A stretch of DNA of 64,000 bases, taken from contig JABYQR010000025.1 of the NCBI GenBank assembly GCA_022592445.1, forward strand, positions 1 through 64,000, given 5' to 3'. This document shows, piece after piece, positions 25,360 to 64,000 of this stretch. Below the pieces are notes generated by a model that made no database searches, was not told where the DNA came from, and saw nothing but the letters and a program-made list of their open reading frames with translations. This DNA comes from Cytidiella melzeri. Taxonomy: Eukaryota; Basidiomycota; Agaricomycetes; Polyporales; Irpicaceae. The translations under genes and the position numbers were made by a program. Every line of letters begins with the position of its first letter. Position 1 is the first letter of the stretch.

Positions 25360-26467
25360 TGACTGTATTACGGGCATTTGCTATTGGTGACACCTTTGAT
25401 AGGCAACTTGATGTGGGATAAAGTGACTGTACTACAATTGATAAGTTTGGCTGCGGGAAAAGGAGCCATACATTGATGAAGATAGTCGCCAATGGTAGCA
25501 AGGGGCTTCATCTATCTTGTCATTAATCTTGTGCAGTGTTCACTGCTGATTCTAGAAAATTACTTGCCTCAAGAATGAAGGGCTTGAGGGTGTCTCATTG
25601 ATCAATTTCTAGAACATGTTACATGTGTCCTGTTGATGTCTGCACTGCCTCACCCCCATCAGAGCTGCCACAGGCTGTGTTCTGATTGTAACTCCTGCTT
25701 ATAGAGCAACTAGTGGTTGTGAAACTGTATGGAAGAATCAAAGGCAGCGCTCTATGCTGATGAAACCACGTCCTGTTGATGTCTGAATTGCCTCAGCCAC
25801 ATCAGAATTGCCACAGGCTATGTTCTGATTCTAACTCCTCCTTAGAGAGCAACTAATGGTTGTGAAACTTTGTGGAAGAATCAAAGGCAGTGCTTGCTGT
25901 TGATGCAACCATATCCTGTTGATGTCTGAACTGCTTCAGCCCCATCAGAACTGCCACAGGCTATGTTCTGATTTTAATTCCTCCTTAGAGAGCAACTTAT
26001 GGTTGTGAAACCTTGTGCAACAATCCGACACAGTGCTTGCTGCTGATGCAACCATGTCCTGTTGATATCCGAACTGCCTCACTGCCATTGGAACTGCCAC
26101 AGGCTATGTTCTGATTTTAACTCCTCCTTAGAGAGCAACTAATGGTTGTAAAACTTTGTGCAACAATCCATTGCAGTGCTTGCTGCTGATGCAACCATGT
26201 ACTGTTTCTGATTGTAACTCCTGCTTAGAGAGCAACTAACCGTTGTGAGACTTGTGGAACAATCAGATGCAGCACTCACTGCTGATGCAGCCACAAATTT
26301 ACATTGTTGAACAATGTAGGGGTTGAGAACTTGTGCTTAGCTTCCAAAGTACTGGTAATCCTTGCTCAGAGCCAACACTATGTGTGGCATGTCTTCTAAT
26401 TGTATTCCTTGTTCAGAGAGCAAGCAATGTCTGTAGATTGCTGCAAATCAACCTGACCAGGATTTGA
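25360..26467 (-). repeat. R2 repeat, central part with array A2
   Basis: Continues R2 after R3. It holds a reverse-oriented 142-bp array (25630-26280; CTGCCACAGG landmark at 25666, 25808, 25951 and 26093) and then a unique arm, ending where the RecQ transposon inserted. Confidence 0.8.
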
Positions 26468-26719
26468 TAGTCTCGGTCCCAGACGTTCGGGCACCTTCCT
26501 GTTTAGGGAGCGGAGAACGAAAAAAAAGAGAGGGGGGCGCCCGAACGTCTGGTGTTTTTGGCCTATCCGGGTGTAGGTAAACTCCCACGTGGCAATCGTG
26601 TCGCGTCCACAACGCGTCCACTTCGGGCGCTTATGTTATTAGCACTACGCGCGATCCTGTATTTACTTCGTCTCTGTCTTGCTATTACATTGTCCCTCCA
26701 TGTCTTATTGCTCAACAAT

Positions 26720-27535
26720 ATGCCAGTAACAATTACACGAGTCAACAAGCAGCGATGGGACCCTCTCGACGCCCTGATGGCACCTCGCCCGCGCCCCGAA
26801 GCTACTGCAGCCCTGTCTGGTAGCCAATCTTTGACAACTGCGTCTTGCACGACCTCGTCCCTTCCATCACAGCCTTCAGCAGCAAATACATATGAGTCTA
26901 TTCTGGATGAACTACAGCCCCTGGCTCCAAAGACAATCAACCATGCTCGGTCGTACAAGCTACTCGGAGAGGCCCGAGAACAGGCAAAGAAAGATTGCCA
27001 GTATTGTTCTGAGACATGGCGGAGTAGAGTCAGACACGAGATTGAAGCTAGATGTCATGGACGCGTACTGTATTGGTATCAAGAAGACGTCGCGGAAGCC
27101 TTCCATCTCGAGTTGGACATCGCGATTGTGGCGGGGACAGGCTTTGGGAAAACACTCCCCTTCGTCATGCCACTGCTCGTCGAGGAGTCCGGTTCAAAGG
27201 TGATCATTGTCTCACCTCTCAATGCTCTCGAACGTGACCAGGTGAGTTTCTGATGAGGATTGTCAATGTACTCGAAGCTGACTATATGTGCCATGCACTC
27301 ACTCACTCTGATAGGCTGCGCGGTTCCGTGATATGGGGCTGACCGCTGTGGCTGTCAATGGCGAGGACTATTCGCACGAGCTGCACCAGGTGATATTTCA
27401 CGTGATTCACATTTTAGTACAAAGACTCACCTTAGTTTCCAGCAACTCGAAGCTGATCACTTTCGTGTCATCATCACCTCTCCGGAAATGATCTTGAAGC
27501 ATCCTCGGTTCTCAAAGCTCATGAGGAGCTCGAGT
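26720..27535 (+). pseudogene. RecQ-like helicase, N-terminal part (RQ-A)
   Basis: Exons 26720-27241, 27315-27389 and 27443 onward. Exon 2 is 75 nt, exactly as in the copy at 59842. Visible: a disordered N-terminus, WYQEDVAEAF before motif I, Walker A AGTGFGKTLPF, VSPLNALERDQ (motif Ia), FRDMGLTAVAVNG, and ITSPEMILKHPRFSKLM. It terminates at RSSS-stop, where the internal deletion fuses it to the right end. Without DEAH and helicase-C it cannot be active. It would be an ATP-driven DNA unwinding enzyme in the intact element. Confidence 0.85.
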
Positions 27536-27740
27536 TGATGGTGCATCTCAACTTCGCGGCAATCCGTCGATGCGAGGTGTTCTCAAGGCGACTCGCGCAC
27601 CGTGTTGTCCTACCAAGCGGTCCTCTGGCAGGGCTGGGCTCAGACTCGTCACCAGAGTCCGAGTCGTCTTCGTCCTCGAGGTCGGCACCTTCAAAGTACT
27701 GGCGTGGAACGCGTGCGCGAGGCATTTGAGGGCGAACGAG
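27536..27740 (-). pseudogene. 5' end of a minus-strand gene next to the right TIR (RQ-A)
   Basis: Minus-strand frame starting MPRARVPRQYFEGADLE and continuing with an acidic Asp/Ser/Glu-rich stretch. It is truncated by the internal deletion. By position it should be the start of the convergent gene whose C-terminal part is seen at 62938-63999. That match cannot be confirmed here because the regions do not overlap. Confidence 0.45.
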
Positions 27741-27987
27741 ACGAGACGGGGGAAAGCAAAGTTTATTGGGACGTGTAGTGTACAAAACTCGTAAATTAAT
27801 CGCGCCGTGATTTGCAGTCACGGTCGCAGATAATCACGACCACGTGGGATTCACCTACACCCGGATAGGCCAGGAACACCAGACCCTCAGCTGGCTTCCT
27901 GGTTTTTTTTTCGTTCTCCGCCCCCAAAACAGGAAGGCAGCGCACGTGGCAGTGTGCAGAGGGTCTGGGACCGAGACTAGGATTTGA

Positions 27988-59089: not shown

Positions 59090-59841
59090 ATTATAGTTTC
59101 TGTGTGGCTGCTGTACACCCTTACTTTGGATTTGTTCGTTCATGCTGCTATCTAAGCTTCTTTTTAGTATGCGAGTAATACTGTTTAGTACTGGGATGGA
59201 GTGTTTGTGGTCAAGAGGAATTAATGGATGGTGTAGAGTGCGCTGTGACGAGTGTTTGTGGTAAGAGAAGTACTGGGAAACGCTGGATCCGGTCCTACAC
59301 GAAAACGGGCCAGCGAGGCCTTGGTGCAAACACTTAGTCTCGGAACCAGCCGTTTAGCTTTGCCTATTTGGGGGCGGGGTTCGAAAAAGAGAAGACGGAG
59401 AGGCAGCTAAACGTCTGGTGAATTTCGTAGAGAGGGGTAGTGATCACCCCCACGTGATGTATCTGATCGCATTCACCACACACACGTCCGTTGCAAGCGC
59501 CGAGTGGCCGTACAGTAAAGTAATTTAAGACTGGCCACTGTCGATCCTATCGACAAAGCTTGGAGGCCATTTCATTTGTATAGTCATAACCTAATGCCAA
59601 GAAAGTTGAATAGTGTGTACTCTCAATCCCCGAGCCCACAGACGACTTGAAGCTACCTGACGCGACGCGACGCGTCCACAACGCGTCCATTATCGGGCGT
59701 TTATTATTATCGTGCTCGCGCGACCTGCGCTCCCATCCTCTCTCCCTCGCTCTGTCCTCGGTCCCTTCCCTCAAAAGCTCCTATAGGTTATTAGCTTATA
59801 ATAATATGCTTTAACCCACTCGTTTACTGCTATATTCCATC

Positions 59842-62800
59842 ATGATGCGCTCCGCTCCGCTCCCTACTGCTAATAAGAGGTCTTCGACGTCAAAGTCTGT
59901 CCGGCGCAACGCCCTCACTACAACTCAAGGTCCTGATAGCTCCGTAAAAGATGCAGAAAAGCCTCAAACTGAGGGCAAAAATCTCTTGCCTCCTGCGTGC
60001 CCAAAGACAAAGCAGCACATTAGTTCCTATCAGACACTCGAGGAGGCTAGAGAAGCCGCGACCAAGGACAAGGATCGCCGTTACTCCTCGTTCATCACCC
60101 AAGTACGAATGGAGTCCGAGCTGAGTTATCGGACGGGTGGTATGGTTCCTCGGTGGTATCAAAAAGACTGCGCCGAAGCTGCATTTCTTGGGATCGACAC
60201 CGGTTTGATCTGCAGCACTGGCTCCGGAAAGACAGAAGCGTTCATGCTCATGCTCTTTGCGGACCCTACTGGTAAGAGCAAGATAATTGTCATCTCAACG
60301 CTCAATGCGCTTGAAGTCGACCAGGTGAGCCTTGTTAGACGAAATTACACTCAAAACTCACTATATGCGCTCATACCAGGCAGCAAGATTTAGTCGCAGG
60401 GGAATTGAGGCAGCCGCTGTAAACGGGGAGACATATTCCGATGAACTTCACAAGGTCAGTCAAGTTATTGTCCCAGATGAATTGTCTCACCATTTCTTGA
60501 TCAGAGACTTGAGAACGACAAGATCCGGGCCATTATTACCTCCCCCGAGATGATCTTCCGGCACCCTCGATTCTCCCTGCTTGTTCGAAGCGCGTACTGG
60601 ATGAAGAATGTTGTAGCCACGGTGATTGACGAGGCTCACTGCGTTCTGGAATGGGGGAAAGAGTTCCGGCGAGACTTTGGTGAAGTCGAGAAAACGCGCT
60701 CACTTATGACTCGCAAACCCATCTTTTTCTGCACCGCCACACTTACTCCAGACATGCTCCGTGAGCTGCTTAACAAGCTTGCGTTCTCACGGGAAAGAAT
60801 GTTCGTTCTCAACTTGGGAAACGAACGTCACAATATCACCGCAGTCGTTTGTCGACTCAAGAGTCCATCGGACTACGGCGCGCTGGACTTTGTCTTGGAT
60901 GAAGGCCTCGCTGGTGATGAACTGGTTCCTGCACTGATCTATGTCAACACACGCGAGCTTGCCATCCGAATCTGGCTTTATCTTCTCCGACAGATCCCTC
61001 GCGACTCACCTCTTCGGGAGCAAATTGACTTTGTCATCTCAACACGCGATTCCGTAGTGAAGCAGCTCGTCATTCAGTTGTTTATGCTTGGAGGCATTAA
61101 GATAGTCATTGCGACAGAGTCCGCAGGAATGGTAAGCATATTTTCATGTCATGCAAAGCAATCAATGTCTCACCTATTTGTAGGGTCTCGACGTTCCACA
61201 TCTTCCCCGAACTATTCAGTTTCAGGCTACTAGAAGTGTAGTTGAATGGGCACAGCATGCTGGACGTGCAGGACGCAACGGCATGTCGGCCTTCTCCTTG
61301 ATGCTGGTCGAGCCGTCGGTTTTTGAACAGACCAAGAAACGCCAGCCACAGGCCTCACAAGCAAAAGAAAATACAAGGGCTATCACGACGGCGAGTGTTA
61401 AGGAAGAAGACATAGATGAGGCTGTACCACCTCGGCCGAAGCGAAAGCGACAAGAAGATCAGGCACAAGGGGTTGAACAGGTACAGCACGCCGACCAAGA
61501 GGATAGCAACCATGTGATCGCAAATCCAGCCAACATGCCAGAAGATGACTTAGAGAATGATCCCGACGTCGAGTATCGCAAGAAGATGGAGCCAACCATG
61601 CGGGAGTACATTATTACTGAGTCCTGTCGTGGCGCGGTTATGAGACAACACTTTGAGAACCCAGATCCGCCGCTGCAAGGCAAGTTCTATTAAACATGAC
61701 GTGCTCTACTGACCTTTCAAATTCCTTCAGAACGCATTGTCATTTGCTGCGACAATTGTCTGCTCAGCAAAGGCCACAATTTCGACTGTCCTATCAATGA
61801 ACATGACGTTGCGATTCTCAACCTCATTCGTCGCCTAAATGCCAGACTAACGGAGGTTACTATCCTTCCTCCAGTTGGCCCTGATGACTTCACTCAGCAG
61901 CAGCTCTTGACCGAGATCCCAAAACGCAACCGCGCCCGCGCAGCTTCCGTCAAGACTGCTCTACTTGCCTTCCGAGATACTTACTGGCGTGAATCCGACC
62001 GACAATCTGGGTTTCTGCCTGACGACGTACTAGCTACTCTCGCATCTGAGGCTAAGATCAGGACTATGGACGATCTGAACCTAGCTCTGCCCGGCTGGAC
62101 TTTTGCTTTCGGAGCTTGGCCCGGGTGCTCTCTCTCATATTGCAGAACTGGATGCTGATTGGCTCAAGAAAAACAAGTCAGGTATACAATCGCGCGCAGC
62201 TGAACGCAAGGCTGAAACGATACGCATGAAGCCTATCACAGAAGAAAAAGAACGTGAGCGTCGCGCAGGAGAACGCGAGGTAAAGCGCTTTGCAAAAGGA
62301 GGAAAGCCGCGCAAACAACCTGGAGAAGTACAGACTACAACGCTATCCCCAGCTTATTATGCCAATCCGATGGGAGCTTCGACACTTGTTCTTCAAAGCA
62401 GCACTATTCATACCCCCGCAACTCCCGTCTATCTCCCTCCTGATGCCCCCGCAACTCCTGTCTATCTTCCTCCTGCAGCACAACCAGCCAGCCCCTTTCC
62501 CTTTGTATCCACTTATTCAGGCCCGACATCATCAGTTCCGCATACACCCAATGCTACGTCTCAGCATGTCACACCCGGATACTTGCCCTTAACGCCTCAT
62601 ACGCCTGTGTTGCAACCTTGGCCTCCCATGTACTATACTCAAATGCCCAGTCCTCCAGCATCCGTTACCTCATTGTCGCATATTTCCATGACCTCTCCCA
62701 CAAGCCCAGCGCATGTATACCCGTTGCCTTCAGCTCATAGCACAATTGCTCCAGCGCCGCTTTGGCAGCCTTACTATACCCCCACCACCACTACATCGAC

Positions 62801-62903
62801 ACCTGTCGCTTCGTCTTTGCAGACTCCCTTCCTGTATCCAACACCGCCTCAAAGCAGTTCAAAGTTTCGATGGAAAGCAGATCCGCGCTCGTCTACAAGC
62901 TGA
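59842..62903 (+). pseudogene. RecQ-like DNA helicase of the RQ transposon, five exons, one frameshift
   Basis: Exons 59842-60324, 60380-60454, 60505-61131, 61184-61679 and 61731-62903; intron 4 is GC-AG. Motifs: WYQKDCAEAAF, Walker A STGSGKTEAF, ISTLNALEVDQ, TSPEMIFRHPRF, DEAH box VIDEAHCVLEWGKEF, FFCTATLTPDM, ALIYVNTRELA, ATESAGMGLDVPHLPRTIQF, and the RecQ-type arginine motif QHAGRAGRNG. A short Cys motif (CCDNC) and a long Pro/Ser/Thr-rich tail follow. A one-base loss near 62103 (in an AC-TTTT-GC run) breaks the frame between LALPGWT and LSELGPGALSH. It would unwind DNA by ATP hydrolysis. Exon 2 is 75 nt, as in RQ-A. Confidence 0.88.
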
Positions 62904-62937
62904 TTCTGCAAATAATGTTGTATGTACATGAATATTA

Positions 62938-63999
62938 TCAATTCTGTGCTACACTCGTGCTTGGCTCTGTGTGAGTCTTGTTTGCCCTCACCGACATCGA
63001 GTCCTTGTACCTCTGGACCAATGTATCTACATCGTCAAATATTTCCTTGTCCGACTTCTCTGTCAATCGTCTCTCTGTCCATCTGTCAATCATCGCCTGC
63101 AGGGTCTTTGGATTAGAGCCAAGGGCCATAACGTCCTTAACCTTGTTGTTCGATGTTAGATGGCGACCAGGCTTGAAGACATGCGCCTTCGCCTCGTGAT
63201 ACTTCCCCTGCAGCTTAACGACGTCCTCATGGTGGCTTGGCGATGTGTGAGACAGCCCGCGACAGAAATGATTGAATTCACGTTCGACGTGATGCTTGAT
63301 TTTACGTTGCGTAGGAATTGATGCCGACATCCTCTTGATGTAATCCCATGTTGCGTACGGTCCCAAAGTTGCAAATGTAACCTAAAAACTTGTAAGCTCG
63401 GTCGATGAGGACAAGGATGAGAAGTGTACCTTAATATCTCGGATATTGTGTTCCTGCACCATGTCAAAGGCGAGGAATGAGTTCTTTTTGCCTGTGGTGT
63501 TGGCAAGCCAACAGAAGCGCATCACGAACGACCTGTAATAATTGTTCAGCGGTGAGTACTCAAAGGAACAGGTACGTACTTAAGATCATCGGGCCACTCG
63601 CGCCACAAGCCTTGCATCAGCTCGAGTAATTCATGTGCTACTTGTGGTTTCCGCCACCATGGAAGCGGAACAGCAGCCGCGGAAGTAAATACTCCATGCG
63701 CCCTACATCACCCGTCGGATGCAGTCGTCCAAGTCGAGGAAGTCGAGTGTGTCACGATTGAATTGCACGCTGAGATCAAAAAGATCATCTTGGGCGGAAC
63801 GAGACTTGTCAGGTTGCCGAAGCTTGACGAGAGCCTCTGTAGAGGCGTATTCGTCAACCACCTTGCACGCGAGATCTCGAAGTTCTTGGGGTGTTTGTTG
63901 ACGAAGCTCCGCGAGCTCTTCAACACCTGCCGTGACCGTCCAAACGTCTCGGAATCGAGCTTCAGCGTGTGCCGTAACGCCTCGCGGAAGGTATAATGA
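62938..63999 (-). pseudogene. DUF6589-like protein of the RQ transposon (C-terminal part), spliced
   Basis: Exons (minus) from the window edge to 63580, then 63430-63532, then 62938-63381, with introns of 47-48 nt. It reads VTAGVEELAELRQQTPQELR, LDFLDLDD, then GDVGRMEYLLPRLLFRFHGG-GN, ELLELMQGLWREWPDDLKSF, WLANTTGKKNSF, MVQEHNIRDIK, GPYATWDYIKRMSASIPTQR. This resembles the conserved block of agaricomycete DUF6589 proteins, from memory. Two one-base losses (about 63712 and 63655) break the frame. It converges on the helicase gene, 34 bp from its stop. Catalytic role unknown; it is the best candidate for the transposase. Confidence 0.6.
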
Positions 64000-64000
64000 A

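Follow-up and report, generated by a model that had tools for sequence, protein, structure and literature searches.

The last part of the analysed DNA, a 64,000-nucleotide stretch of the fungus Cytidiella melzeri, carries a copy of a two-gene element that is very probably a class II DNA transposon of the helicase-bearing AcademH type, with a DUF6589 protein as putative DDE transposase of RNase H fold and a RecQ-like helicase as its partner. This stretch, here called the window, corresponds to C168:1-64000 of the 49.7-Mb genome (731 contigs) of C. melzeri, a wood-decay polypore of the Basidiomycota. The termini of the element are terminal inverted repeats (TIRs) of the form TAGTCTCG...CGAGACTA, which enclose genes for a RecQ-like helicase and, in convergent orientation, for the DUF6589 protein. 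The ends, the target duplications, the pairing of the genes, the predicted fold of the DUF6589 protein and the selection on both proteins are shown by the analysis. The novelty resides in the families, which are of a known kind, and in the DUF6589 assignment, not in the combination of a helicase with a TIR transposon. The large copy in the window comprises the following features:

59335..64000, no strand: large two-gene transposon copy, of which the left 4,666 bp lie in the window; it runs on to contig position 66130 for a total of 6,796 bp (bounded by TIRs; aligned part >99% identical to three full copies elsewhere)
59335..59351, + strand: left TIR TAGTCTCGGAACCAGCC of the large copy; its right partner, beyond the window, is TAGTCTCGTACCCAGAC when read from the opposite strand
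59842..61680, + strand: RecQ-like helicase gene, first four exons at about 59842-60324, 60380-60454, 60505-61131 and 61184-61680 (borders set by eye, the last one least certain; 560 amino acids without a stop)
61732..62903, + strand: last helicase exon or exons, encoding a Pro/Thr-rich tail (frame broken in the window copy; a single open frame of 405 amino acids in sister copy L024)
62938..64000, - strand: 3' part of the DUF6589 (putative transposase) gene, extending to near contig position 65819 (reading frames disrupted in the window copy)

The initial annotation of the window had proposed that a TIR transposon with two genes, one for a RecQ-like helicase and one for a DUF6589-like protein, starts with the left TIR at 59335, and the right TIR was indeed found past the window edge at C168:66130 (L021 7131). 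Its forecast of CCGAGACTA followed by CAAACACT beyond position 64000 failed: the right end reads GTACGAGACTA and then GATATTGTT, so that the window copy lacks a target duplication. Three sister copies of 6,782-6,783 bp (C352, C173 and C667) are >99% identical to the window copy over the aligned part, and exact 9-bp duplications flank C352 (GTTGGTACC) and C667 (CCTTCCCAC). A duplication was sought at both ends of the window copy and of C173 and found at neither element, which could reflect recombination between copies or later change. Compared with C352, the window copy shows 20 mismatches, 34 inserted bp close to its right end, a 15-bp difference and several insertions or deletions of one base; small insertions and deletions disrupt both of its genes relative to C352. 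Longer open frames are found in a sister copy, yet a stop lies inside its helicase too.

The ends recur throughout the genome. The end motif TAGTCTCGNNNCCAG occurs at 259 sites, compared to 3 for the same pattern read backward as a control. In eight elements, TIRs and exact duplications flank both the helicase and the DUF6589 gene. End pairs were picked by eye among the first 100 of the 259 sites. Among the 28 two-ended elements, which include a small copy at 26468-27979 of the window and are related to each other, so that the counts are not independent, the target duplication is 9 bp and exact in 19, 9 bp with one mismatch in one, 8 bp in four and absent in four, with no case of 10 bp. Outside the 28 stand four of the 13 oriented left ends (L028, L034, L036 and L039), for which the stretch examined contained no right end, the C101 pair with a left flank of two bases, and the C57 stretch with no opposing end; where the same ends of C22 and C93 could be paired in another way, the alternative was disregarded. 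The window copy's own family shows a 9-bp duplication in three of five members (C352, C667 and C115) and none in the other two (C168 and C173). The 8-bp duplications belong to the small window copy, C22:44124, C42:41086 and C106:14679, and three of these four copies carry GGTCCCAG at both ends. C98, with the same ends, has a 9-bp duplication, and C17, again with these ends, has none. The 8-bp duplication that the initial annotation had compared with those of 8-bp superfamilies stands for the small copy, but the related copies have mostly 9 bp, which weakens the comparison. One two-gene element, C93:11432-18377 (L040, L077, L078), has inserted into another copy's right end and is flanked by a 9-bp duplication, GGGTCTGGG; its pre-insertion sequence, or empty site, is therefore known from other copies. 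In L029, about 1.85 kb of extra DNA lies within an element otherwise about 99% identical to L027 and is probably another insertion.

The two genes are also paired across the genome. After merging of exon matches at most 3 kb apart on one strand, the at least 120 matches to PF20231 (DUF6589) condense to 82 loci and the at least 87 helicase exon matches to 83 loci. A DUF6589 locus lies at most 6 kb from 56 of the 83 helicase loci and is convergent in all 56, against a chance expectation of about 2% for a DUF6589 locus near a random point (density estimate). The remaining 27 helicase and 26 DUF6589 loci are unpaired, likely owing to decay and truncation. It is these 27 helicase loci that speak for mere chance neighbours, that is, for RecQ and DUF6589 genes of the host, or linked to telomeres, which adjoin in repeats without any transposon. 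The probability of such an arrangement is practically negligible, since it is contradicted by the TIRs and exact duplications that flank the gene pair in the eight elements, and the uniform convergence of the pairs and the nested insertion with a known empty site argue in the same direction.

Spliced together, exons one to four of the window helicase give an open frame of 560 amino acids without a stop that contains Walker A (TGSGKT), DEAH and arginine motifs. Its best NCBIfam match is TIGR00614 (recQ_fam; residues 106-447, E 2e-36), whose score of 125.8 bits lies below the curated cut-off of 219.8, and for this reason the protein is labelled RecQ-like. Pfam matches to DEAD (E 3e-19) and Helicase_C (E 9e-10) exceed their cut-offs, and the helicase exon of L031 matches BLM, RECQ5 and WRN chains. 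The helicase motifs that the initial annotation had noted in the large copy are confirmed.

The DUF6589 protein is very probably the transposase, as judged from its predicted fold and the placement of a putative catalytic triad. The profile PF20231 matches the C. melzeri protein P0004, taken as deriving from sister copy C173, with E 5e-106; in the window copy the match falls into two pieces (E 1e-43 and 1e-14) with stops inside. An AlphaFold2 model of the protein (predicted local distance difference test, pLDDT, 86) was used for a structure search, in which DDE transposases or RAG1 filled all 27 top rows and scored well above other folds; Hermes (hAT) and the P element were the best matches. 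Beta-strands are predicted at 304-316, 328-340, 428-431, 473-477 and 505-509, and D310, D478 and E724, the last in a helix at 719-735, are positioned like a catalytic triad. The model thus contains the strand core, an aspartate at strand 1, another at strand 4 and a glutamate in the following helix that characterize the DDE or RNase H-like fold, in keeping with the transposase role suggested by the initial annotation. A sequence search of solved structures with DUF6589 gave no match, a second one only three rows at chance level (E 0.7-1.0), and a Foldseek comparison of the model with viral models nothing at E 0.001. Set A1 comprises 50 of the 68 proteins from the DUF6589 protein search, and the 10 proteins obtained in a search for more distant relatives all stem from mushroom genomes. 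DUF6589 was found in none of 14 control genomes, a result of little weight given that the three identified ones are prokaryotes, and is named in no paper of the full-text literature library searched. In Pfam, DUF6589 counts among the families without known function; the putative DDE assignment would allow annotators to recognise many mushroom "hypothetical proteins" as transposon genes.

The fold resemblance to the hAT (Hermes) and P element transposases, for which no sequence match was found, together with the 8-9-bp duplications could point to a hAT, P, MULE or KDZ (Kyakuja-Dileera-Zisupton) element with a captured helicase. P elements create 8-bp duplications, and to our knowledge neither they nor hAT elements such as Hermes carry a helicase. 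Excerpts of one paper give 8 bp for Zisupton, one Dileera family and usual hAT elements (PMC12730594). Such a capture is very unlikely. In P0004 and P0121 Pfam recognises DUF6589 alone, without a KDZ (PF18758) or MULE (PF10551) domain, and no hAT, P or MULE transposase domain was seen in these elements. Transposases of both the KDZ and the MULE-like kind are also present in this genome, with 97 exon rows for the former and 30 for the latter. KDZ occupies other loci: none of these rows falls on the contigs of 12 two-gene elements (90 of the 127 positions were checked by script, the rest were seen on other contigs), and a protein profile comparison of DUF6589 with KDZ, represented by five related copies, was negative.

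A recent capture is further at odds with the occurrence of the pairing in two deep lineages. The second one, represented by L081 (C724:12500-19500), has convergent helicase and DUF6589 genes with long open frames, and its DUF6589 proteins are 19-21% identical to P0004 with a profile match probability of 100. The ends of L081 were not found in the 7 kb examined, where a search for 14-mer inverted repeats gave one weak pair without duplication and the TAGTCTCG motif was not above chance. With L031 as the reference, comparisons between subfamilies give a ratio of nonsynonymous to synonymous differences (pN/pS) of 0.21-0.27 in one helicase exon and 0.25-0.33 in two transposase exons; the most distant subfamily, L038, gives 0.43 in the former and 0.42 and 0.57 in the latter. 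Synonymous sites are near saturation. These ranges do not include L033 and L034, which were compared within the subfamily and whose values, based on few changes, scatter between 0.12 and 0.54. These ratios indicate that both proteins are held under purifying selection, from which it can be argued that the helicase is of importance to the element.

The lineage to which the element is assigned, AcademH within the Academ DNA transposons, reportedly goes back to work by Kojima that is said to have appeared in 2020 in Mob DNA 11:15. In the literature consulted, a RecQ helicase in Academ was mentioned by 2013, citing Kapitonov and others (PMC3627910), AcademH is described as a low-copy lineage of Basidiomycota, Ascomycota and Mucoromycota (PMC10799480), and putative Academ elements are noted in the mushroom Marasmius oreades (PMC8290104). 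Duplications are given as 9 or 10 bp for AcademH and 3 or 4 bp for AcademX, a lineage of the same superfamily that has a nuclease instead of the helicase, and the difference is tied to helicase versus nuclease (PMC10045372). The initial description of the element as undescribed cannot be upheld, as helicase-bearing Academ elements are already in print, to judge from the excerpts (PMC3627910, PMC10045372, PMC10799480). The C. melzeri element resembles AcademH, as portrayed by the citing papers, in its encoded helicase, 9-bp duplications, TIRs and Basidiomycota host, and its testable features agree with this lineage, with the exception of the minority of 8-bp duplications.

Several observations weigh against the AcademH assignment. 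Four of the 28 elements have 8-bp duplications, compared to the 9 or 10 bp of AcademH; Pfam assigns no named transposase family, and no solved chain matches by sequence; and the likeness to AcademH, known here through excerpts of citing papers, is one of described features. All of them would suit a distinct superfamily outside Academ, in which a DUF6589 DDE transposase gained a RecQ-like helicase independently and merely resembles AcademH. This alternative is unlikely, given that the type of helicase, the length of the duplications and the host group agree with what the citing papers, in the parts available, say of AcademH. Equally unlikely is the extended proposal of a DUF6589 superfamily of its own, whose DDE transposase would be unrelated in sequence to that of Academ, with the convergent RecQ-like helicase as obligatory second subunit and at least two ancient lineages within mushrooms. 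A RecQ helicase in a fungal DNA transposon is also a feature that the element shares with KolobokH, described as a fungus-only Kolobok lineage in excerpts of a paper that gives Kolobok duplications as TTAA-specific and 4 bp long (PMC9587614). Membership of KolobokH is extremely unlikely: it is contradicted by the duplications of 8-9 bp and varied, non-TTAA sequence, and the genes of the C. melzeri element are convergent.

In the favoured reading, the DUF6589 transposase would recognise the TAGTCTCG termini and excise the element by a presumed cut-and-paste route. Joining to the target with a 9-bp, sometimes 8-bp, stagger and subsequent gap repair would create the duplication. The convergent RecQ-like helicase would be a retained partner, probably serving to open or remodel either the termini or the intermediates of repair or replication. 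The fixed convergent pairing with a constrained helicase offers a testable case for the function of a RecQ-like helicase in transposition. Internally deleted copies that retain both ends, such as the small window copy, might be mobilised in trans. The features of this copy are:

26468..27979, no strand: non-autonomous deletion derivative of a sister family, 1,512 bp (about 97% identical to C17:58234-64756 and C725:56904-63426 in two blocks that join at one junction near 27533-27537)
26468..26484, + strand: left TIR of the small copy
27963..27979, - strand: right TIR of the small copy
26460..26467, no strand: left target duplication GGATTTGA
27980..27987, no strand: right target duplication GGATTTGA
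26720..27533, + strand: 5' remnant of the helicase gene (start set by eye; helicase exon match at 27437-27544, E 5.5e-7)
27537..27725, - strand: probable 5' remnant of the convergent (putative transposase) gene (assigned by eye and position, not by protein match; the block matches the C17 and C725 end beside the DUF6589 gene)

The TIRs, complementary at 17 of 17 bases, and the 8-bp GGATTTGA duplication are as initially annotated, like the left TIR of the large copy. The interpretation as a deletion derivative was equally sound: since the two blocks of about 97% identity meet at one point, about 5 kb were lost by internal deletion from a parent resembling the full relatives C17 and C725, both 6,523 bp long. 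The small copy belongs to a sister family that is separate from the family of the 59335 element. Further shortened members of the small copy's family each have their own size (C42, 1,856 bp; C98, 1,355 bp). Besides the TIRs, the small copy contains an 88-bp subterminal inverted repeat (82%; 26494-26581 and 27850-27937) and, at its left end, a local hairpin (window positions 26479-26552), both of which are possible candidate binding sites.

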